A stretch of 64,000 bases of DNA from Chloroflexota bacterium. GTDB lineage: Bacteria; Chloroflexota; Dehalococcoidia; GIF9; UBA5629. The position numbers and the translations under genes are program-made. Within the stretch, counting starts at the first letter, position 1. Each line of letters opens with the position of its first letter. Where the stretch lies: positions 1-64,000 of the forward strand of contig VGOP01000009.1 of NCBI GenBank assembly GCA_016875875.1, written 5' to 3'. This document shows positions 1,969 to 12,728 of this stretch, one piece after another. The notes beneath the pieces are model-generated. The model was not told the DNA's origin. It did not search any database and was given only the letters and a program-made list of their open reading frames with translations.

Positions 1969-4623
1969 ATGAATAAAGAAAAAGGTAGCAAAGTCGTGGT
2001 GGTGACCGGAGATGTCACTATTGATTGGAACATTGCCCGAATATGGCGAACGGAGGGCATGGCGCAGGCTTGGACTGCGGATGAAGTAACTGCCGCCTTC
2101 TGCCAGCGCGGTGGCGCGGCAATGCTGGTTGACCTTATTAGTGCTGTTGCCAAGAACCTGAGACAAGCCAGCCAGGTCAACTTTGAAGTCCAGCAAGTCA
2201 GTCTGCCCCGAGGTCGGGTAACTCCGGCTGATAGCCGTTTCCACCATTCTTATGCTATGTGGGCGCCCTTCAAGCTTGATGAACGCGCCTCAAGCTCAGA
2301 CAAGGTATGGCGGGTGCAGGAATTCCTGGGGCTGAGTCCAGCACATACTAACGTGGCTTCATCAGACAAGTGGAGAAAGATTGTCGATGACCCCAAATAC
2401 CCGGACCTCATCATCATTGACGATGCCAACCTGGGGTTTCGTGAGCACCAAGAGTTCTGGCCTCAGGCATTGGCCAGTAGTACCGCCAGCCCCTGGGTTG
2501 TGGCCAAGATGGCTAAGCCCGTTGCTCAAGGCAGACTGTGGAACCATTTGCACCGCAATCATGCTGAGCAGCTTATAGTGGTCATGACAGCGGGTGATCT
2601 ACGGAGCAGCCAGGTACAAATCAGTCATCAGATATCATGGGAACGCACTGCCCAGGACCTGGTGTGGGAACTTTTATACAATCCCCATGTGAACGCGCTG
2701 GCACAGTGCGCATATGTGGTCGTCTCTTTTGGCACTGCAGGCGTGATTCTTTTGTCACGAAATTCGAAATCCGTACCGGATGCAATGCTGTTTTTTGACC
2801 CAAGTGCGATGGAAGGCGAATGGGGATGCTACCACAAGGGATACATGATCGGGTACAACTCTTGCCTCACCGCAGGCATTGCCCGTGAACTGATGTTGAA
2901 TGCCACGCAGCCAGACATGTCCCGGGGCATCCAGTCTGGTGTTCGTGCCATGCGCTTTCTTCATGTGGAGGGCTACGGCCATGTCGGTAGTGACCTAGGT
3001 CAAATCCGTCTCGCTTTTCCAGTCTCAAAAATAGCTGAGGTATTGGCAGAGGATGGTAAGTGCCTGGCAACAGCTTTAATCAGGAATCCAACACAGGCGC
3101 TGCCGGCGCTAGCGACCGGCACTGCTGCCACAGAGACAGCCCGTTTCTGGACAATTCTCGAGGACAAAAATCCAGCTCCACTTGAGGCTATAGCAGAACA
3201 AATTGTGCACGAAGGTCTGGAATGCGCCCTACCTGAAGTGCCAATGGGACGGTTTGGAAATCTGAAGACGGTGGACCGCAGGGAGATCGAGAGCCTGCAC
3301 AGCATCAGTAGTCTGATTCACGACTACTGCCAACGTTACCGCCAAACACCCCTTTCCATTGCTGTCTTTGGTCAGCCGGGCTCTGGCAAGTCTTTTGCCG
3401 TAAAAGAAGTAGCCAACTCAGTGCTGCCGGGTGAAATTGAGACTCTGAACTTCAATCTATCGCAGCTTGCTGGATTTGAAGATTTGTTTGATGCCTTTCA
3501 TCAGGTGCGTGACAAGGCATTATCCGGCAAAATTCCACTCGTCTTCTGGGACGAATTTGATGCCCACCTACAGCATCAGCCGCTGGGCTGGCTGCGTTAT
3601 TTTCTGGCTCCGATGCAAGACGGTGAGTTTCAAGAAGGGCAGATAACTCATCCCATTGGTCGCAGCATCTTTGTTTTTGCCGGCGGCACAAGCCATAGCA
3701 TGGAAAACTTTGGCACCAATCTTGAAGAAAAAGAGAGCCGAGCAGCAAAGTTGCCCGATTTTGCCAGCCGGCTCAAAGGCTTTCTCAACATCCTCGGTCC
3801 TAACCGGCAGGAAAATACTCAGGGGCTGGCTAAAGACGCTTACTATATCATCCGGCGAGCAATTATCTTACGCTCAATCTTTGAACGCTTTGCGCCACAG
3901 CTTCTGCACCAGGAAGGAAACAAGAGAATGGTGAACATTGACCAGGGAGTGCTGCGCGCCTTTCTGCTGACTAAGGAATACAGACACGGAGCCCGGTCTA
4001 TGGAAGCAATCGTGGCTATGAGTCAACTTGCAGGCAAAACAAGCTTTGAGCGTTCCAGTTTGCCTTCTGAAACGCAATTGAATTTGCACGTAGATGGTCA
4101 GGACTTTTCCGCCTTAATTCAAAGTATGGAGCCTGATGAAGACCTCCTGGAGAAGCTTGCCGAGGCGTTTCATGAAATATTCTGTGAGGATTTAAGTGCA
4201 AAAGGATACAAGTATGGACCGGTTACACGGGAAGACAAGAAAGAACATAGTTCGCTCAAACCCTACGCCGAACTACCTGAGAATGAGAAGGAGCAGAATC
4301 GCAACAATGTCCGGGATATTCCGAGCAAACTAGCAAGCGTGGGATATGTCATGCTGCCAGCCCGCGGTGGTGAGGCACCGGCTGAATTTGAAAGTAGCGA
4401 GGTAGAGAAACTGGCAAAAATGGAGCATGAACGATGGATGCGTCAGAAGCTTGATGAAGGGTGGCGATATGGGAAGAAGACCATTAAAGCTAGGAAGCTG
4501 CATAAAGACCTGGTGCCGTGGGATAAACTTCTCGAAGAAGAGAAGGAAAAGGATCGCGTCCTGGTGAAAGGCATCCCCAGAATTATTGCGAAAGCTGGGT
4601 ATACTATGGTCAAATTGAGCTAA
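1969..4623 (+). CDS. Ribokinase-like / AAA+ ATPase / tandem RyR-domain protein
   Basis: 884 residues. The N-terminus (~8-400) resembles a PfkB/ribokinase fold: a start strand VVVTGDVTIDW, a central YPDLIIIDDANLGF strand near 144-157, and a VVVSFGTAG strand near 250. The catalytic GAGD motif is not recognisable, so kinase activity is doubtful. The middle is an AAA+ ATPase with Walker A GQPGSGKS at 468-475, Walker B LVFWDEFD at 524-531 and a sensor-1-like FVFAGGTS. The C-terminus holds two RyR repeats (~728-797 and ~815-882). The second is the better match, with EHERWMRQKLDEGWRYG, LVPWDKLLEEEKEKDR and IPRIIAKAGY. RyR repeats are best known from ryanodine receptors and also occur in prokaryotic signalling proteins. 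The gene lies between the SLOG and TIR genes in the same direction, 12 and 22 bases away. It probably acts as a ligand-gated or NTP-driven regulator of the cassette; that is inference. Confidence 0.75.
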   Translation: MNKEKGSKVVVVTGDVTIDWNIARIWRTEGMAQAWTADEVTAAFCQRGGAAMLVDLISAVAKNLRQASQVNFEVQQVSLPRGRVTPADSRFHHSYAMWAPFKLDERASSSDKVWRVQEFLGLSPAHTNVASSDKWRKIVDDPKYPDLIIIDDANLGFREHQEFWPQALASSTASPWVVAKMAKPVAQGRLWNHLHRNHAEQLIVVMTAGDLRSSQVQISHQISWERTAQDLVWELLYNPHVNALAQCAYVVVSFGTAGVILLSRNSKSVPDAMLFFDPSAMEGEWGCYHKGYMIGYNSCLTAGIARELMLNATQPDMSRGIQSGVRAMRFLHVEGYGHVGSDLGQIRLAFPVSKIAEVLAEDGKCLATALIRNPTQALPALATGTAATETARFWTILEDKNPAPLEAIAEQIVHEGLECALPEVPMGRFGNLKTVDRREIESLHSISSLIHDYCQRYRQTPLSIAVFGQPGSGKSFAVKEVANSVLPGEIETLNFNLSQLAGFEDLFDAFHQVRDKALSGKIPLVFWDEFDAHLQHQPLGWLRYFLAPMQDGEFQEGQITHPIGRSIFVFAGGTSHSMENFGTNLEEKESRAAKLPDFASRLKGFLNILGPNRQENTQGLAKDAYYIIRRAIILRSIFERFAPQLLHQEGNKRMVNIDQGVLRAFLLTKEYRHGARSMEAIVAMSQLAGKTSFERSSLPSETQLNLHVDGQDFSALIQSMEPDEDLLEKLAEAFHEIFCEDLSAKGYKYGPVTREDKKEHSSLKPYAELPENEKEQNRNNVRDIPSKLASVGYVMLPARGGEAPAEFESSEVEKLAKMEHERWMRQKLDEGWRYGKKTIKARKLHKDLVPWDKLLEEEKEKDRVLVKGIPRIIAKAGYTMVKLS

Positions 4624-4645: not shown

Positions 4646-6403
4646 ATGGCTCACGACATTTTTATTAGCTATTCATCCCCTGACAGGGCCACTGCTGAGG
4701 CGATATGCGCCGCGCTCGAATCAAGAAACATATCTTGCTGGTTCGCTCCCCGGGATGTTGCAATCGGCAAAGTATGGGTTGAGGCAATCGTTGATGCGAT
4801 TGATGCGAGCCGTATTTTCATCCTAGTGTTATCATCCAGCTCGAATAGCTCACCACAAGTAAATAGAGAGGTGGAAAGAGCCGCCAGCAAAGGCATTCCC
4901 ATCATCCCAATTCGGATTGACAATACTCCTCTCTCCAAATCTATAGATTTTTTCACTAGTCGTCATCAGTGGCTAGATGCCCAAACGCCACCTCTGGAGA
5001 AACATTTACCCAAACTTGTCGCCACGGTACAGCAGCTTCTAGCTCAAGAAGCTTCTGCCGTGGCAGAGAAAGAGGCGGAGGAATCCCGGGCGAGAGCGAA
5101 GCGGGAGGCCGAGGCAGCGAAGAAGATTCAAGAAGCCGCTGCCAGGGCGAAGAAAGAAGCGGAGGGAGCCGTTAAAGAGAGGGCACGACAGGAAGCGGTT
5201 CGGGCGAGAGCGAAGCGGGAGGCCGAGGCAGCGAGGAAGATTCAAGGAGCTGCTGCCAGGGCGAAGAAAGAGGCGGAGGAATCCCGGGTGAGAGCGAAGC
5301 GGGAGGCCGAGGCAGCGAGGAAGATTCAAGAAGCCGCTGCCAGGGCGAAGAAAGAGGTAGAGGCGTTCCGGGAGAGAGCAAAACAGGAGGCTGAGGCAGC
5401 GAAGGGGATTCAAGCAACTGCTGCCAGAGGGAGGATGGAAGCCAAGCCAAAACCAATCCCTAAGCCACATGCCAGGATGCCGCTGAGGCCATTTCTAATA
5501 GGCCTAGGCGCTGCCTTGTTAGGGATTGCAAGTGTCGGTGGTATCTACTTCACCTTCGGTCATCTGTTCACCCCATCGCCAACACTTGCCATTCAGGATG
5601 TCTCGGTCTCAGACATAACTGCGACAAGTGCCGTCCTTACTTGGACAACAGATAAACCGGCTACCAGCCAGGTAGCATACGGCTACACCGCTGATTTAGG
5701 TTTGACTACTGCCTTGGGCGAAGAACTGGTCACCAACCACAGGGTCGAATTAACCGGGCTTCAGCCAGATACAACTTGTCACTTTAGGGTCATGTCAAAA
5801 AACGCTAGCGGAAAGGAAGCCACATCTGACATAGGCCAATTGACAACACTGCCAGCAGCTACAACACCAATGCCTACTCCTAGTCCACCACCACCCGTGG
5901 AAAAGCCGGTGGAGCCACCACCCGCAGCCAAGCTCTCCTTCAACGCCACTGAGTACACCAATGCCGAGTACGGCTTCTCCATCAAATATCCGAGCGATTG
6001 GATAAGGGTAGCAGATGAGGAAAAAAATGAGATTAAGCTCTACGCTAAAGGCACCGGGGAGGTTCCGGTAATATCTGCATCTGTTAGGGGACAAGCTACC
6101 TTTGCCGAGGCTGTCACAGCCGCATTTGGGCCAAGAAGTATATCACGTACAGCTATCAAGGTTGATGCTGAGCAGGAGACAACTCTGGAGGATGGCACCA
6201 AAGCTACCACTGCCAAAGTTGACTGGGAGAATTCATCGGGATATTTGATTGAGAGCTATGCTCTCGGGGTTAAGAAGGGCAACAAGTGGATTCTAGTTAC
6301 CATAAGTACTGTAAGCACGAAGTCTGTAATCACGCTTGCTCCTTACGATGAAGCCAAGTTTTCAGAGATAGCGCACACTCTGCGATTCACGGCGGAGGAA
6401 TGA
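4646..6403 (+). CDS. Membrane-anchored TIR-domain protein with coiled coil, FN3 and PsbP-like domains
   Basis: 585 residues. Residues 1-130 are a typical bacterial TIR_2 domain: DIFISYSSPDR, WFAPRDVAIGKVW, a QVNREVERA helix containing the candidate NADase glutamate Glu75, and PIIPIRID. Residues ~134-265 are an Ala/Glu/Lys/Arg coiled coil built from 28-residue repeats. A membrane helix follows at ~282-304, then an FN3-like domain (~313-403, SAVLTWTTDKPATSQVAYG), a Pro-rich linker, and a PsbP-like domain (~432-583, beginning YGFSIKYPSDW). The expected topology is TIR inside and FN3/PsbP outside. TIR domains of this type often cleave NAD+; activity here is inferred from the motif. The extracytoplasmic half suggests sensing at the envelope. 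RBS AGAGG lies ahead of the ATG. Confidence 0.85.
   Translation: MAHDIFISYSSPDRATAEAICAALESRNISCWFAPRDVAIGKVWVEAIVDAIDASRIFILVLSSSSNSSPQVNREVERAASKGIPIIPIRIDNTPLSKSIDFFTSRHQWLDAQTPPLEKHLPKLVATVQQLLAQEASAVAEKEAEESRARAKREAEAAKKIQEAAARAKKEAEGAVKERARQEAVRARAKREAEAARKIQGAAARAKKEAEESRVRAKREAEAARKIQEAAARAKKEVEAFRERAKQEAEAAKGIQATAARGRMEAKPKPIPKPHARMPLRPFLIGLGAALLGIASVGGIYFTFGHLFTPSPTLAIQDVSVSDITATSAVLTWTTDKPATSQVAYGYTADLGLTTALGEELVTNHRVELTGLQPDTTCHFRVMSKNASGKEATSDIGQLTTLPAATTPMPTPSPPPPVEKPVEPPPAAKLSFNATEYTNAEYGFSIKYPSDWIRVADEEKNEIKLYAKGTGEVPVISASVRGQATFAEAVTAAFGPRSISRTAIKVDAEQETTLEDGTKATTAKVDWENSSGYLIESYALGVKKGNKWILVTISTVSTKSVITLAPYDEAKFSEIAHTLRFTAEE
5087..5440 (+). repeat. 84-bp tandem repeats within the TIR gene
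   Basis: Four copies begin at about 5087, 5201, 5285 and 5369. The last two intervals are exactly 84 bases (28 codons); the first is 114 because 30 extra bases are inserted. The shared core reads agagcgaagcgggaggccga. Copies 1-3 are nearly identical at DNA level and copy 4 has diverged. The unit encodes four coiled-coil heptads and keeps the reading frame. Confidence 0.9.
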
Positions 6404-6961: not shown

Positions 6962-7029
6962 GGCCACAACTGAACTTCAATTCCGCAGCCGACAATTAAA
7001 GAAAAAGTAGGATGACATTTCTCTCCCGG

Positions 7030-7182
7030 AATACTGAGGGATAGTTTTTACGCCTTTATCCATGCGGACAAGGCAGAGGTTGGTTTGGATTTCCCCTCCC
7101 TTCGGTTGCGTGACACGCTGAATTATCGCTGCCCATTTCTGACAAAAGTGCAATCTTGAGAGCTTGGACATTCCTCAGTATT
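7030..7182. repeat. Separated 10-base inverted repeat
   Basis: AATACTGAGG at 7030-7039 is exactly complementary to CCTCAGTATT at 7173-7182. The 133 bases between hold no gene. It could bound a small non-autonomous element or be chance; no target duplication is evident. Confidence 0.25.
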
Positions 7183-7256
7183 GTAAGGCTAACCCAAGAA
7201 GTGCTATAACTATTGGACAGGTTCAGTATGAGACCAATGCCCCGGAGGAAGATAAA

Positions 7257-7985
7257 ATGAGATCGAATATATTAAAAACACTTATCAAACAAATTATTCG
7301 GCACGCAATGTGGGAAGGCCAGACAAAAACCGTCACGAAAGTACTGGCATCGAGCTGCAGGCGAGATGGTATGCCTGAATATGGACGCTTCACTGCCAAG
7401 GAAATAAGGAGAATAACATCTCAGGCTATGCTGAATATCAAAGAGTTAATGCCTTATTTTGAAGATCTTGATAGTATCGGCAATTATCAACAAGAATATG
7501 CTGGATTATTAACTCTGGCCGTATACAGAGCTCTGCTAAAAGAGAACATAGCTCGCGATTACGCCACAAATCTAGTCGGGGACATGATTTGGCAAGCCTA
7601 CCTGAACAATAAAGGCGCAATTCCAATAATCGCTCCGCTGAGAACGATGTGGTGGAAAATAACAACAAAAGGTCCAACGGCTCGTTTGGGGAAGTACCTC
7701 AAAGCCGCAATGAAGTATCCCTTTACTGAACCGGGGTATAAAATAAAGCTATATATGGACAAAGACGTGTGGTGCATGGACATTTATTCATGCACGGTTT
7801 ATGACTTCTTCAAAAAGTTCGGACAAGAAGAGATGACTTTCTTCAGAAAAACCTGGTGCACCTTCGATTACTCCGGGGGCGAATACCTTGTTGAAGGCAG
7901 TAAGTATCGGAGAATACACACTCTGTCCGATGGTGATGAACTGTGTGATGCGAGATATTTTATTGAAAAGCAAATATCAACTTGA
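7257..7985 (+). CDS. L-2-amino-thiazoline-4-carboxylic acid hydrolase-like protein
   Basis: 242 residues when started at the ATG at 7257, which has GGAGG at 7243-7247 ahead of it; an upstream in-frame ATG at 7164 lacks this. The C-terminal part resembles the ATC hydrolase family, with a W-C-M-D-I-Y strand, an F-F-K-K-F-G-Q-E-E helix and LSDGDELCDARYF near the end. Members open thiazoline rings or act in other poorly defined reactions, and often occur alone in anaerobes. There is no signal peptide or membrane segment. No partner gene is next to it; the closest neighbours are the small membrane protein upstream and the epimerase operon downstream, which has its own promoter. The family call is by overall look and the C-terminal motif. 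Confidence 0.5.
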   Translation: MRSNILKTLIKQIIRHAMWEGQTKTVTKVLASSCRRDGMPEYGRFTAKEIRRITSQAMLNIKELMPYFEDLDSIGNYQQEYAGLLTLAVYRALLKENIARDYATNLVGDMIWQAYLNNKGAIPIIAPLRTMWWKITTKGPTARLGKYLKAAMKYPFTEPGYKIKLYMDKDVWCMDIYSCTVYDFFKKFGQEEMTFFRKTWCTFDYSGGEYLVEGSKYRRIHTLSDGDELCDARYFIEKQIST

Positions 7986-8073
7986 ACATCTAAACCATGG
8001 TTAGCATGAACTTATACAGTAACCTTGTAGAAGTGTAATCTACGCGTTTATGTCTAAACTGGTTTGTCATTCT

Positions 8074-8101
8074 TTGACAACATGCAGCGAATTTCCAATA
8101 T
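8074..8101 (+). promoter_or_regulatory. Candidate promoter of the acyl-CoA dehydrogenase operon
   Basis: TTGACA at 8074-8079 with CAATAT at 8096-8101 (16-base spacer); TATAGT at 8099-8104 is an alternative -10. The leader of ~110 bases contains small inverted repeats (GCACTGTGC near 8163; TACCGCC/GGTGGTA near 8181-8197). No known riboswitch was recognised. Confidence 0.45.
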
Positions 8102-8219
8102 AGTCTACGCACAGCTTCATCTCCCGTCCGTCTTTGAGCCTGAGAGGGTGTAGTTTATGAGCGCACTGTGCCATATAAGTTACCGCCATGGGTGGTAGAG
8201 CACTGGAAGGGCAAGTAAG

Positions 8220-9155
8220 ATGAAAGTGCTAATTACTGGAATATCCGGATATCTTGGGCAGGTTCTTCTGCCTTATTTGTTACAAGACGAAGAGATTAAC
8301 TCAATTATTGGGCTGGATATTAACGAGCCCCTTTTAGAACATCCAAAATTGTCATTTGAAAAAGTTGATATAAGAGTTCGGGGAATCTCAAGTCATTTTG
8401 AAGATGTTGATGTGGTTATTCATTTAGCATTTATTGTTGTTGACAAGAAGAAAATGGTTCGAAAGCTTATTTATGATATAAATGTTAATGGAACGAAAAA
8501 CTTACTTATGGCAGTCAGTGAGAGTGGTATAAAAAAACTGGTTGTGGCAAGCAGTATCGCTGCTTATGGTTCGCATGCTGATAATCCAGAGCTAATTACC
8601 GAAAATACACCTTTAAGAGGAAATAAAGATTCTTATTATTCCCATACAAAACTCCTGATAGAAAAAGCGCTTGACGAATTTGAGAAAGAAAATAAAAACA
8701 TCAAGGTTGTTCGCCTTAGATCATCAGTATTATGTGGTCGTAATGTCAACAATCCTTTAGCCGATTTCCCTAAATATAAGCGTTTACTGTATATTAAGGG
8801 AAATACTGTCGGGCTTCCAATAGTTCATGAAGATGATGTAGCCCGAGCTTTTTACTGGGTGACAAAGAAAGATGTCTCTGGTGCTTTTAATATTGCTAGT
8901 GGCAATTTAAGTATTCAGGAAATGTCCGAAATGCTTAATGTACCGGTAATGGCAGTCCCATATTTTATTGCTAAAACATTTGGGCATCTTTTATTCAAGA
9001 TTGGCAAATTCCCATTCTCAGCCGATTGGATTGTATTGGGAAGATATCCCTGGCGAGTGAGCAGTGAAAAGGCAAAAAATATCCTCGGCTGGTATCCTAA
9101 ATATACACCTGTGGATGCATTTAAAGAAGTATTAGATAAATGGAAGAACAAATAA
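8220..9155 (+). CDS. NAD-dependent epimerase/dehydratase (extended SDR)
   Basis: 311 residues. Rossmann motif GISGYLG at the N-terminus, the substrate-site serine stretch VVASSIAAYG, and the catalytic Tyr-x-x-x-Lys as YSHTK. These define the extended short-chain dehydrogenase family acting on nucleotide sugars, sterols or hydroxyacyl compounds. First gene of a four-gene operon; its last 16 bases overlap the next gene, implying translational coupling. With two acyl-CoA dehydrogenases and a decarboxylase-like partner, a role in modifying an unusual acyl or cyclic substrate is more likely than in sugar metabolism. Substrate unknown. Codon use is clearly AT-rich compared with the rest of the window. 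Confidence 0.8.
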   Translation: MKVLITGISGYLGQVLLPYLLQDEEINSIIGLDINEPLLEHPKLSFEKVDIRVRGISSHFEDVDVVIHLAFIVVDKKKMVRKLIYDINVNGTKNLLMAVSESGIKKLVVASSIAAYGSHADNPELITENTPLRGNKDSYYSHTKLLIEKALDEFEKENKNIKVVRLRSSVLCGRNVNNPLADFPKYKRLLYIKGNTVGLPIVHEDDVARAFYWVTKKDVSGAFNIASGNLSIQEMSEMLNVPVMAVPYFIAKTFGHLLFKIGKFPFSADWIVLGRYPWRVSSEKAKNILGWYPKYTPVDAFKEVLDKWKNK

Positions 9156-10219
9156 GAAATTTAGCCAGAGATTTTGCCGAGCAGGAATTAAGAAAAAGGT
9201 GGGAAGAGCTTGATTGCCGTAATTCTGCATTACTGACAGATATTTTGAAAAGAGCGGCAAACATCGGAGTATTTAGTTTTTTACTTAGTCAGGAAATTGG
9301 TGGCGCTGGATTTAGCCCGAAAGATTATTGCATTTTTCTTGAAGAAATAACGAAAGGTTGCCCAGGAATTGGATTAATATTTGCCGCGCATCTAATGGGT
9401 ATCACACCTATTTTGTTATCAAAAGATGCCGGAAAGAAGGCAAAGTTTCTATCGGCTATTGCAGAGTCTGAAAAGCAAAATAATCCTTTAATTTTTACCT
9501 CAGCCATAAATGAAGAAAAGTTTTCGGGATTAATTCCTGATAATATCCAGACTGCTGTTAAGAGTTACCGACTTTCTGGGAGCAAAATAAATGTATACGG
9601 TGGAGAAATTGCTAATTATTTTAGTTTACTGGCAAGGTTAGAAGGCAGTGATAAATTTGGTTGGTTTATCATTCTGTCTAATCTTAAGGGGACAGAGGTA
9701 AAAGAAGAAAAATACAGGATCGGACTCAGAATTTGTCCCATGAATAATATTTACTTTAAAGATGTAGAGATATTGCCAGAGAATATATTGGACGAAGCGA
9801 AATTGTCCGATTTGGTAGACTATTATAGATTTTTTGATTCTTCTCTGGGATCGGTCGGGGTAGGTATGGCTGAAGAAGCCTACGATATTGCTTTGAAGTA
9901 TACGACCGAGCGCTATCAGGGTGGGAAAATTATATGTGAGCACGAGGCGGTGAAGGTGATACTTTCTGAGATGAAACTCTCAATTGAAACAGCCAAAATT
10001 TTTGTTTATCACTCGTCTCATGTTATCGCTTCTGCTTATGCCAGCGAAATAGCGGAGAAAGTTTGTATTGATGCGATACAATTACTTGGTGGTTATGGCT
10101 ATATGAAAGATTTCCGAGTGGAAAGAATATTAAGAGATGCCAAAACCTATCAGGGGATAGTAAATCCGGTATCCCGGAAAATGGAATATATTGGGCGCGA
10201 AATTGAAAGGTTAAGGTAA
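9140..10219 (+). CDS. Acyl-CoA dehydrogenase family protein, altered active site
   Basis: 359 residues with the normal fold order: an N-terminal helical domain with IGGAGFSPKDY, a middle beta domain, and a C-terminal helical domain with QLLGGYGYMKDFRVERILRD. Where active enzymes have Tyr-Glu-Gly-Thr with the catalytic glutamate, this one reads TYQGIVNP. Glu is replaced by Gln and the following Thr by Ile. The alternative glutamate position used by isovaleryl-CoA dehydrogenases also appears to be a Tyr (in DYYRFFD). It may be a structural partner of the intact dehydrogenase at 11005 or carry out different flavin chemistry. The start ATG lies inside the upstream gene. Confidence 0.8.
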   Translation: MEEQIRNLARDFAEQELRKRWEELDCRNSALLTDILKRAANIGVFSFLLSQEIGGAGFSPKDYCIFLEEITKGCPGIGLIFAAHLMGITPILLSKDAGKKAKFLSAIAESEKQNNPLIFTSAINEEKFSGLIPDNIQTAVKSYRLSGSKINVYGGEIANYFSLLARLEGSDKFGWFIILSNLKGTEVKEEKYRIGLRICPMNNIYFKDVEILPENILDEAKLSDLVDYYRFFDSSLGSVGVGMAEEAYDIALKYTTERYQGGKIICEHEAVKVILSEMKLSIETAKIFVYHSSHVIASAYASEIAEKVCIDAIQLLGGYGYMKDFRVERILRDAKTYQGIVNPVSRKMEYIGREIERLR

Positions 10220-10233
10220 AGAGGAGAAAGAGA

Positions 10234-11004
10234 ATGGAAAGAAAACTTGAATTTTTCAAAGGGGTTGTTCAATTCGATACTGAACTTGAAAGGGAGAAAT
10301 CCAAATTTCCAATTTTTTATTATGATGCTTCTTCTATAACCGGTATATTTCCAGCGAGAGTTGGTAAATTAAGAAAAATCCTGCCAAAGAAAGAGTATCA
10401 TCCTCTAACTATATTCCCTGGAATAGGAGCCATTGCAATTACTGCTTTTGAATACCGAGATACCGATATTAGACCATATAATGAATTATCTATTTCTGTT
10501 CCAATATCATACAAGTCTCGTTGCTGTGTTCCAGCAGTGAAATTGTTATCCTATCTCCTCCGGCGAGAGTTTCATGTTTATATTCATCATCTTCCAGTCA
10601 CCACCAAAATAGCCTTAGACGGAGGCGTGATTGTATATAACTATCCAAAGTTTATTGCACAGATTGATTTTGAGCGGGATGATAGAAATGTGCGTGTCAA
10701 ATTAATAGATGAAGGGAATCTTATTCTTTGCCTGGAAGGCAAGAAGATTAAGGCAGACAAAATTCTGAAGATGAGATATGTTACCTATCCAGTAAAAGAC
10801 GGGAATGCACAGCATGCTGATGTTCTGATTAATGCGATAAATTTTGGTTCGTCTCGTAATTCATCAGACCTTTCTTTGGAACTGGGGGAGGAGCATCCGA
10901 TTTCAAAAGAACTTCAGGATTTATTGATATCTAAAAGACCACTGCAGTACCAGTATATTCCAAAGTTTCAATCTATTTTATATGGACCAAACAGGTTGGA
11001 GTAA
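10234..11004 (+). CDS. Acetoacetate decarboxylase family protein
   Basis: 256 residues. Resembles the ADC-like fold: RPYNELSISVP in the middle, then TTKIALDGGVIVYNYPKF, where family members have Gly-Tyr-Pro-Lys with the Schiff-base lysine. Acetoacetate decarboxylase has two adjacent lysines here, while this protein has only one (Pro-Lys-Phe), so the chemistry may differ; related enzymes act as aldolases or dehydratases. It lies 14 bases after one acyl-CoA dehydrogenase gene and directly abuts the next. RBS AGAGGAG precedes the ATG. A cytoplasmic beta-keto acid or beta-keto-acyl substrate is plausible from context. Confidence 0.65.
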   Translation: MERKLEFFKGVVQFDTELEREKSKFPIFYYDASSITGIFPARVGKLRKILPKKEYHPLTIFPGIGAIAITAFEYRDTDIRPYNELSISVPISYKSRCCVPAVKLLSYLLRREFHVYIHHLPVTTKIALDGGVIVYNYPKFIAQIDFERDDRNVRVKLIDEGNLILCLEGKKIKADKILKMRYVTYPVKDGNAQHADVLINAINFGSSRNSSDLSLELGEEHPISKELQDLLISKRPLQYQYIPKFQSILYGPNRLE

Positions 11005-12453
11005 ATGCAGAGACATATTTTTGGACCTGAAAAATTAATCTATAAGCTAAGAGATTTGAAGGAAGCATTTCCCAGACTCGGATTGATCGAGAAGTGTGCC
11101 CCAGATTATGTGTCTGAACTATATAAAGTTCAAAATACTGCCCGTGAGTTTGGCACAAAATATGTGGAGCCGATTGCTGAAGAATTAGATAAAAAGATAG
11201 AAAAGGACCACAATTATTTCCATTGGGATATAGTCTATAAAGCGCTGCCCTATAGATTTTTAAGTTATCTCATACCAAAGCAAAGTGGCGGTAAGGGGTT
11301 TTATACTACTCATTTTTCTATTCTTATGGAAGAGCTATGTAGTTTTTGCCCGGGTATCGCCAACATATTCGGGGCACATGCTTTAGGAATTTCACCGATT
11401 GTTCTTTTACCAGATACAAGACATTTTGCCACATATCTGAAAGAAGTAGCAGATAAAGAAAGAAAGGGAGAGCCAGTTTTATTTGCTTTAGCAATTACAG
11501 AACCAGAAGCAGGTTCTGATGTTGAGGATGCTGATTTTTTGAAAGCTGCCAAGCTGGTAACCCATGCCAGAAAAGTTAATGGTGGATACGTGTTGCAGGG
11601 AAGAAAGGTATTTATCTCCAATGGAAATGTAGCCAGATATATCTGGGTTGGCACTTTTCTTGATAGAAAAAGTCCACTTCAAACGGGAGTATCGTTTATA
11701 GTAAAAAATGATGCCAAAGGATTTTCCGTAGGGAGAATTGAAAGGAAAATGGGGCAGCGTGCCTGTCCAGCAGCGGAGTTAATGTTTGAGGATGTATTCA
11801 TTCCAGAGGAGGATATAGTTGGCGATATAGGTGAAGGAGAAAGATTGACAGCACTTGTTCTCGGTACCTCTCGGGCACCGGTCGCGGCGATTGCCACCGG
11901 TATTGCCAGAGGTGCCTTTGAAAGGTTGTTGAAATATTTAAATGACACCACAATAAAAGGAAGATATTTGTTTGAAGAACAGTGGTGTCAGATTATGCTG
12001 GTTGATATATTGGCAAAAATTCAAATGGCAAGACAATTATATCTTGACGCTGCAATATGTTGCGACTTATTAAGCACCCCTAAATTAATGGAGCATCCCT
12101 TAATGAAGGCCTTTAATCTCGTACCGGGATCTATTATGAACTCAGATTTAGCCCAAAGAATCTTTAACCCCCAAAAAACCTATGAATTTGTAAGAAAGTT
12201 AGCTAAAAGAAGTATCTCAGATGAAGATTTGTCTTTAGTTGCTGGTTATAGTTCCCTGGCAAAATTTTCAGCTTCTGATCTGGCGATAGAAGTGACATCA
12301 AAAGCAATGCAAATTATGCAGGAAGATGGGGCAATATCCTCATATGGAATCGAAAAATTGTACCGTGATGCTAAATTAACTCAAATATACGAAGGAACAA
12401 ATCAGATAAATAGACTATATGCTTTCAAGAATATTTTGGTTGAAAGAAAGTGA
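11005..12453 (+). CDS. Acyl-CoA dehydrogenase
   Basis: 482 residues, about 100 longer than typical family members because of an N-terminal extension of ~50 residues and an insertion before the last helices (~350-420). Standard motifs are intact: ALAITEPEAGSD (FAD and substrate binding), IERKMGQRACPAAELMFEDV, and YEGTNQINR with the catalytic glutamate. It oxidises an acyl-CoA thioester to the enoyl-CoA, passing electrons to an electron-transfer protein not found in this window. Last gene of the AT-rich operon; the start codon follows the stop of the decarboxylase-like gene without a gap. It may pair with the glutamate-lacking paralogue at 9140. Confidence 0.9.
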   Translation: MQRHIFGPEKLIYKLRDLKEAFPRLGLIEKCAPDYVSELYKVQNTAREFGTKYVEPIAEELDKKIEKDHNYFHWDIVYKALPYRFLSYLIPKQSGGKGFYTTHFSILMEELCSFCPGIANIFGAHALGISPIVLLPDTRHFATYLKEVADKERKGEPVLFALAITEPEAGSDVEDADFLKAAKLVTHARKVNGGYVLQGRKVFISNGNVARYIWVGTFLDRKSPLQTGVSFIVKNDAKGFSVGRIERKMGQRACPAAELMFEDVFIPEEDIVGDIGEGERLTALVLGTSRAPVAAIATGIARGAFERLLKYLNDTTIKGRYLFEEQWCQIMLVDILAKIQMARQLYLDAAICCDLLSTPKLMEHPLMKAFNLVPGSIMNSDLAQRIFNPQKTYEFVRKLAKRSISDEDLSLVAGYSSLAKFSASDLAIEVTSKAMQIMQEDGAISSYGIEKLYRDAKLTQIYEGTNQINRLYAFKNILVERK

Positions 12454-12728
12454 CGGGTTAATAAGCTATCCGGATGACCCTTACGTAGCACGCCATTTTA
12501 TCTCTCTCCCCATTAGGCTAACCTCAACCCTTACAATTCTCAAAGGTTTAGCTCTATCAGAGCTCTTAGCTGACTCTCCTAGTGCCCCAAGACCACACGC
12601 ATTCAACAGATTATGGACATTTTACCTACCGTGGAGAATAGGGCCAATGCGCTTGGTTGAACATAAGTCCAAAAAGTTCAGTGAAACGCCTTTTGTGTTT
12701 ACAAGGCTATCGGTTCCATCCTGAATTC
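12454..12728. other. Intergenic region, nothing recognised
   Basis: 275 bases between convergent genes. An open frame at 12419-12724 begins inside the dehydrogenase gene and has no ribosome binding site. No strong terminator hairpin is seen. Confidence 0.5.

Follow-up and report, generated by a model that had tools for sequence, protein, structure and literature searches.

The association of TIR, SLATT, SLOG, and RyR domains in conflict systems was reportedly predicted by Burroughs et al. in 2015 (NAR); all four are known domains, and the logic linking the partners described here has probably been predicted already. Among described comparators, Thoeris, which consists of the ThsB TIR protein and the ThsA SIR2-SLOG protein, is triggered in the cytosol by a phage capsid protein (PMC11312562), and TIR-STING is triggered by cyclic-di-GMP, likewise in the cytosol (PMC13142454). 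A survey of TIR domains numbers the conserved catalytic glutamate E75 and describes it as critical for NADase activity (PMC7075850). SLATT domains are predicted to be membrane effectors regulated by ADPr derivatives (PMC9503650; PMC7159879).

The locus examined here lies in a window of 64,000 nucleotides from a Chloroflexota bacterium of the class Dehalococcoidia, and encodes a 585-residue protein that combines a TIR domain, a long helix, a transmembrane (TM) helix, an FN3 domain, and a PsbP-like domain. It resembles Thoeris in that the TIR would be expected to make an ADPR-type messenger for a SLOG-type reader, but differs in that the TIR is membrane-anchored with an ectodomain and the likely effector is SLATT. 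Membership in Thoeris is ruled out, as SIR2_2 (PF13289) was not found in this genome and the neighbors are SLOG-SLATT and AAA-RyR genes. Closer are the SLATT/SLOG/TIR nucleotide-signal conflict systems of Burroughs, Aravind and colleagues, in which SLATT and SLOG occur beside TIR (PMC9503650); here, a SLATT 2TM module and a likely SLOG are encoded in the same operon as the TIR, though the portions of the literature searched describe no operon of this kind with a TIR-TM-ectodomain receptor. TIR-STING and SPARTA TIR-APAZ are similar in linking or fusing a TIR effector of matching fold to a separate sensor, but the sensor is a different one, and here there are a TM helix and outside domains.

The animal Toll-like and IL-1 receptors are likewise single-pass proteins with a cytosolic TIR and an outer ligand-type ectodomain. 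However, Toll-like receptors run from an N-terminal LRR through the TM to a C-terminal TIR, whereas the order here is TIR-TM-ectodomain (FN3 and PsbP) in a type II orientation, with a long rod, a conserved catalytic glutamate, and a SLOG/RyR/SLATT operon that set it further apart from the animal receptors. The comparison gave no sign of common descent of the whole receptor, and the gene may be regarded as a bacterial cousin of Toll-like receptors that is built backwards and may start a suicide or alarm signal.

Domain layout and predicted topology

The gene occupies positions 4646 to 6403 of the forward strand as a single uninterrupted ORF with an ATG start, exactly where the initial annotation had placed it. 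The TIR domain (residues 1–132, positions 4646–5041) is matched by Pfam TIR_2 at residues 5–114 (E=7.6e-24), and in an AlphaFold2 (AF2) model of the whole protein, built with 17 TIR relatives aligned, it is confidently predicted (pLDDT ~90). Foldseek against the PDB matches it to the TIRs of SARM1, AbTir, Hydra TRR-2, and SPARTA (prob 1.00), with the Toll-related receptor TRR-2 among the best PDB matches both by profile and by fold. Residue Glu75 (positions 4868–4870), in the helix spanning residues 70–81, is the counterpart of the catalytic NADase glutamate: it is kept in 21/21 close relatives and aligns with the glutamates of Cat1 and of TIR-STING. The sequence hallmark of a TIR NADase, a catalytic glutamate in the helix that follows strand C, is thus present and predicts activity, and the residue whose absence the initial annotation had regarded as telling against a TIR effector is in place.

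Following the TIR is a segment rich in Ala, Glu, Lys, and Arg (residues 117–251, positions 4994–5398), which AF2 models as a single unbroken helix of ~135 residues. Hydrophobic residues and alanine recur along it with a peak at 3.49 residues (p=0.002 versus shuffles), and it is built on a 28-residue repeat, equal to four heptads, which is seen in the DNA as an 84-bp tandem repeat at 5201–5427. The long rigid coiled coil proposed earlier is therefore borne out as a continuous helix with heptad periodicity, but the coiled-coil state itself is only likely, because the core of the rod is alanine and it could instead be a single stable helix.

A single TM helix is predicted at residues ~283–303 (positions 5492–5554), with the hydropathy peak at residues 283–301 (mean KD 1.95). 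The 15 residues before it contain four K/R and no D/E, and no K/R follows it, so that by hydropathy and charge alone an N-in/C-out orientation is supported, and a TM also follows the TIR in most close relatives. The AF2 model gives neither a TM helix there (pLDDT 24–42) nor the start of the FN3 domain, two stretches over which no homologs were aligned. Beyond the membrane, the FN3 domain (residues 315–401, positions 5588–5848) is matched by Pfam fn3 at residues 315–395 (E=3.2e-8), and a zinc-ribbon-like protein of the same genome (L008) also carries FN3 after a TM.

The C-terminal domain (residues 431–583, positions 5936–6394) is beta-rich and fairly confident in the AF2 model, and its assignment to PsbP is based on fold. 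The first PDB match by Foldseek, 9grx_0 (E 9.5e-7, prob 1.00), is annotated only as NDH-PSI-LHCI supercomplex; we infer that it represents a PsbP-like NDH subunit, given that the PsbP structures 4rth and 2xb3, likewise at prob 1.00, stand near the top of the same list and that a profile built from the tail and its paralogs matches the PsbP-like NDH subunit PnsL1 (7eu3, E=0.0012). Pfam PsbP_2 matches residues 431–491 with E=1.5e-5 and 25.5 bits (26.8 bits in another scan) against a curated cut-off of 27, and is matched by 16/18 homologs of the tail. The predicted structures thus support the TIR fold and the PsbP fold individually, and the two domains that had been proposed for residues 310–585, FN3 and PsbP-like, are both recovered.

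That the FN3 and PsbP-fold tail lies outside the cell is well supported by its paralogs in this genome and in relatives, because these carry either a lipoprotein signal peptide or an N-terminal anchor. In L070–L075 and others, a lipobox signal peptide or a TM anchor at the N-terminus precedes the PsbP-like domain, which in L074 stands at the end of a Peripla_BP_6 substrate-binding protein. Together with the positive-inside topology and the ligand-binding ectodomains of relatives, this agrees with the receptor-like layout and the membrane helix that the initial annotation had proposed. The nearest relative found for the tail is encoded in the same genome (66% identity), and the nearest relative of the TIR comes from a different family within the class (G398, 63% identity), which suggests that a TIR-helix-TM front was fused with surface modules that were locally available.

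Relatives with exchanged ectodomains

The initial annotation had presented the layout as unusual, but it is not isolated. In a sample assembled by a genome-collection scan with the 585-residue protein as query and from class-wide TIR matches, and thus seeded by this protein, a TM was found in 32/37 close TIR-clade proteins, which are spread over many phyla, versus 8/34 more distant TIRs (Fisher 7e-8, which overstates independence because the architecture is shared partly by descent among close relatives). The TM calls are by hydropathy, and the genomes are drafts with short contigs and are not independent of one another. Among the single-TM proteins, 24 have 80 or more residues after the TM; the flanking charge is unequal in 22 of these, and 19 of the 22 are predicted to be N-in.

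The domains that follow the TM are varied. By Pfam they include Peripla_BP_6 (L137, E 3e-36), Bmp (L012, E 2e-19), TPR (L100), LRR (L076), a 3-keto-disaccharide-hydrolase/LamG-like domain (L068), and RDD (L105), and by sequence alone, without a domain scan, TPR (L009, L013), a PDZ-like domain (L011), beta-propeller-like repeats (L017, L019, L020), and LRR (L016, L022, L029, L103). The G398 protein joins its TIR through an Ala/Glu/Lys/Arg linker to a TM and TPR, and has a partner of the same class. G194 encodes another TIR-TM protein that ends in a PsbP-like domain, L137, in which this domain, recognized by profile, follows Peripla_BP_6; it is the outcome of the search for further TIR-TM-PsbP architectures that had been called for. 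A unique architecture is ruled out by these many relatives, and on sequence comparison the protein belongs to a widespread TIR-TM-X clade in which ectodomains are interchangeable; neither this clade nor the place of the gene as third in a tight operon was part of the initial annotation. A partial search of the literature found no description of TIR-TM-ectodomain proteins as a clade of prokaryotic receptors.

The L137 gene (G194:C180, 671–2860) has a transposase just upstream, and another contig of the same genome (C116) also carries a transposase, as well as a 57-residue TIR start after a SLOG-RyR gene. In L076 and L103, the TIR-TM-LRR proteins, an inverted Toll-like layout, are encoded beside RyR genes (SLOG-RyR in L076). 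Among plasmids, TIR matches were confined to five records and were distant.

Operon partners and the tie to RyR genes

Two genes precede the TIR gene on the same strand, in the order SLOG-SLATT, AAA-RyR-RyR, and TIR, with gaps of 12 bp and then 22 bp. The contig starts 351 bp upstream of the first, so more genes of the operon may be missing. The G+C content of the operon is 0.51, falls to 0.37–0.43 at 7001–12500 of the window, and is ~0.50 again by 13–14 kb. The SLOG-SLATT protein (positions 352–1956) contains SLATT-type 2TM modules at 1105–1359 and 1540–1920, with NF033634 SLATT_1 at E 6.8e-16, and SLATT_1 and DUF4231 both match above cut-off in its C-terminal part. Its N-terminal region (352–1020) is likely a SLOG domain by motif alignment; relatives give only weak, sub-threshold YpsA matches, and profile searches of the PDB found no solved homolog of it.

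The AAA-RyR-RyR protein (positions 1969–4623) carries an AAA ATPase domain (3343–3579, E 3.7e-5) and two copies of RyR (4138–4350 and 4402–4608; Pfam RyR E 8.9e-27, 93.6 bits, over cut-off). These follow an N-terminal domain of ~440 residues (1969–3300) that has 49–65% identity in relatives and recurring GDVTxDW and WERTAxD motifs, and for which no match was found in Pfam or the PDB. A degenerate PfkB-like kinase, suspected by eye for this domain, was unsupported by those searches, and an AF2 model of the protein from its single sequence reached a mean pLDDT of 37. The PADLOC models leave the partner proteins uncovered and found no system, for which reason no system match backs a role in defense; we infer a defense outcome for the operon.

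The tie between TIR and RyR is not confined to this operon. Among 393 genomes of the class, some with short or broken contigs, RyR occurs in 12 and TIR in 42, and TIR is found in 9/12 of the RyR-bearing genomes versus 33/381 others (Fisher p=1.4e-7, a test that ignores shared ancestry). In the nine genomes with both, the TIR is always on the same contig and in the RyR neighborhood: it adjoins RyR in the window and in L068, L069, L076, L100, L103, and L106 (as a 57-residue TIR start), and it lies within ~1.5 kb in L105 and at ~6 kb in G292. A TM is present in 8/9 RyR-linked TIRs versus 2/23 unlinked ones, in a tally made by hand and then tested. The RyR partner takes three forms, AAA-RyR, 2TM-TrkA_N-RyR, and LSDAT/SLOG-RyR. 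Across the phylum, membrane TIRs adjoin RyR genes in L153 and L150 and have RyR within a few kb in L156, L157, and L158, while L151 has RyR without TIR. In other phyla, an HMM scan places RyR ~1.6 kb from a TIR of this clade in L015 and adjacent to one in L022 and L027, and 12/22 genomes that carry the clade contain RyR, 10 of them over cut-off.

The richest version of the system is L100 (G398:C1, 1–6813), in which all genes are on one strand and encode an RyR fragment, the TIR-helix-TM-TPR protein, a soluble TIR-helix-zinc-ribbon protein, a Peptidase_C14 caspase-like protein with a TM, a SLATT protein, a collagen-like lipoprotein, and an AAA-RyR start that apparently continues on contig C3.

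Signaling model and alternatives

We lean, with some reservation, toward a type II TIR receptor that senses the outside and makes an NAD+-derived product, with RyR/SLOG modules as the readers and SLATT channels as the executors. In such a model, a three-gene operon for membrane signaling or abortive defense would have the single-pass N-in, C-out receptor as its input. The FN3 and PsbP-fold ectodomain, composed of modules that also occur on surface lipoproteins of this lineage, would bind, or be perturbed by, something located at the membrane or beyond it, and clustering or a twist, transmitted through the TM and the ~20-nm rod, might then bring the TIRs together, as TIR biology would suggest. 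The TIRs would cleave NAD+ with Glu75 to give an ADP-ribose-type signal, and this signal, as the gene linkage suggests, may be perceived by the two co-encoded proteins through their RyR and SLOG modules. Finally, the SLATT 2TM modules would alter membrane permeability so that the cell stops or dies, with the AAA-RyR protein perhaps gating or resetting the response. The initial annotation had opposed a surface trigger to a cytosolic second messenger, but with SLATT, a likely SLOG, and RyR in the operon this is a false choice, and the likeliest reading is a trigger at the surface together with an NAD+-derived messenger in the cytosol.

An unlikely but serious competitor is that infection is sensed in the cytosol by the AAA-RyR or SLOG protein and that the TIR is a membrane-anchored effector that kills by bulk NAD+ depletion, with the ectodomain as an anchor or spacer. 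RyR, SLOG, and AAA are plausible sensors, a TIR can act as a terminal effector, as in TIR-STING (PMC13142454), and a mere anchor would predict the non-conserved ectodomains that are found. However, an anchor needs no recurring ligand-binding folds such as Peripla_BP_6, Bmp, LRR, and TPR, the operon has its own membrane effector in SLATT, and keeping TIR and TM while ectodomains are swapped is the usual pattern of sensor diversification. The lipoprotein paralogs of the tail, which include ABC-type substrate-binding proteins (L074 by Pfam, L070 by sequence), would also suit signaling outside immunity, in which the TIR, as a scaffold or NAD+-linked regulator, reports the state of the envelope, stress, or nutrients through RyR/SLOG/SLATT; phage-defense models match none of the partners, and no close relatives of the TIR or AAA-RyR proteins were found in the viral contigs searched. 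We consider this improbable, as the patchy distribution (RyR in 12/393 genomes), the SLATT/caspase/NTPase gene linkage, and the intact catalytic glutamate fit conflict systems better. A chance fusion or annotation artifact, in which misassembly or an accident of frame brought unrelated domains together, might be entertained for a MAG-like draft assembly in a window that begins at a contig end, but we would give it hardly any weight against a single uninterrupted ORF, the TIR-helix-TM relative in G398 with its same class of partner, and the further TIR-TM protein that ends in a PsbP-like domain (G194, L137).

Extending the outside-sensing receptor to the whole clade gives a broader and more tentative proposal, possible though on balance doubtful: that inverted Toll-like receptors are widespread in prokaryotes, as type II TIRs whose exchanged ectodomains (LRR, TPR, periplasmic-binding, PsbP-like, LamG-like, and others) sense extracellular ligands and whose NAD+-derived messenger acts on RyR-type and SLOG sensors and SLATT channels. 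If true, bacteria would also take decisions from outside the membrane, through a receptor-type TIR whose outer domains can be swapped. The literature searched named no ligand for prokaryotic RyR. The genetic tie between TIR and RyR would open to test the idea that TIR products are read by prokaryotic RyR domains, a question relevant to the long-debated link between cADPR and RyR in animals. In L157 and L158, RyR-SLOG-like proteins with an apparent C-terminal nucleotide-cyclase domain, recognized by eye, are encoded near multi-TM TIR proteins.
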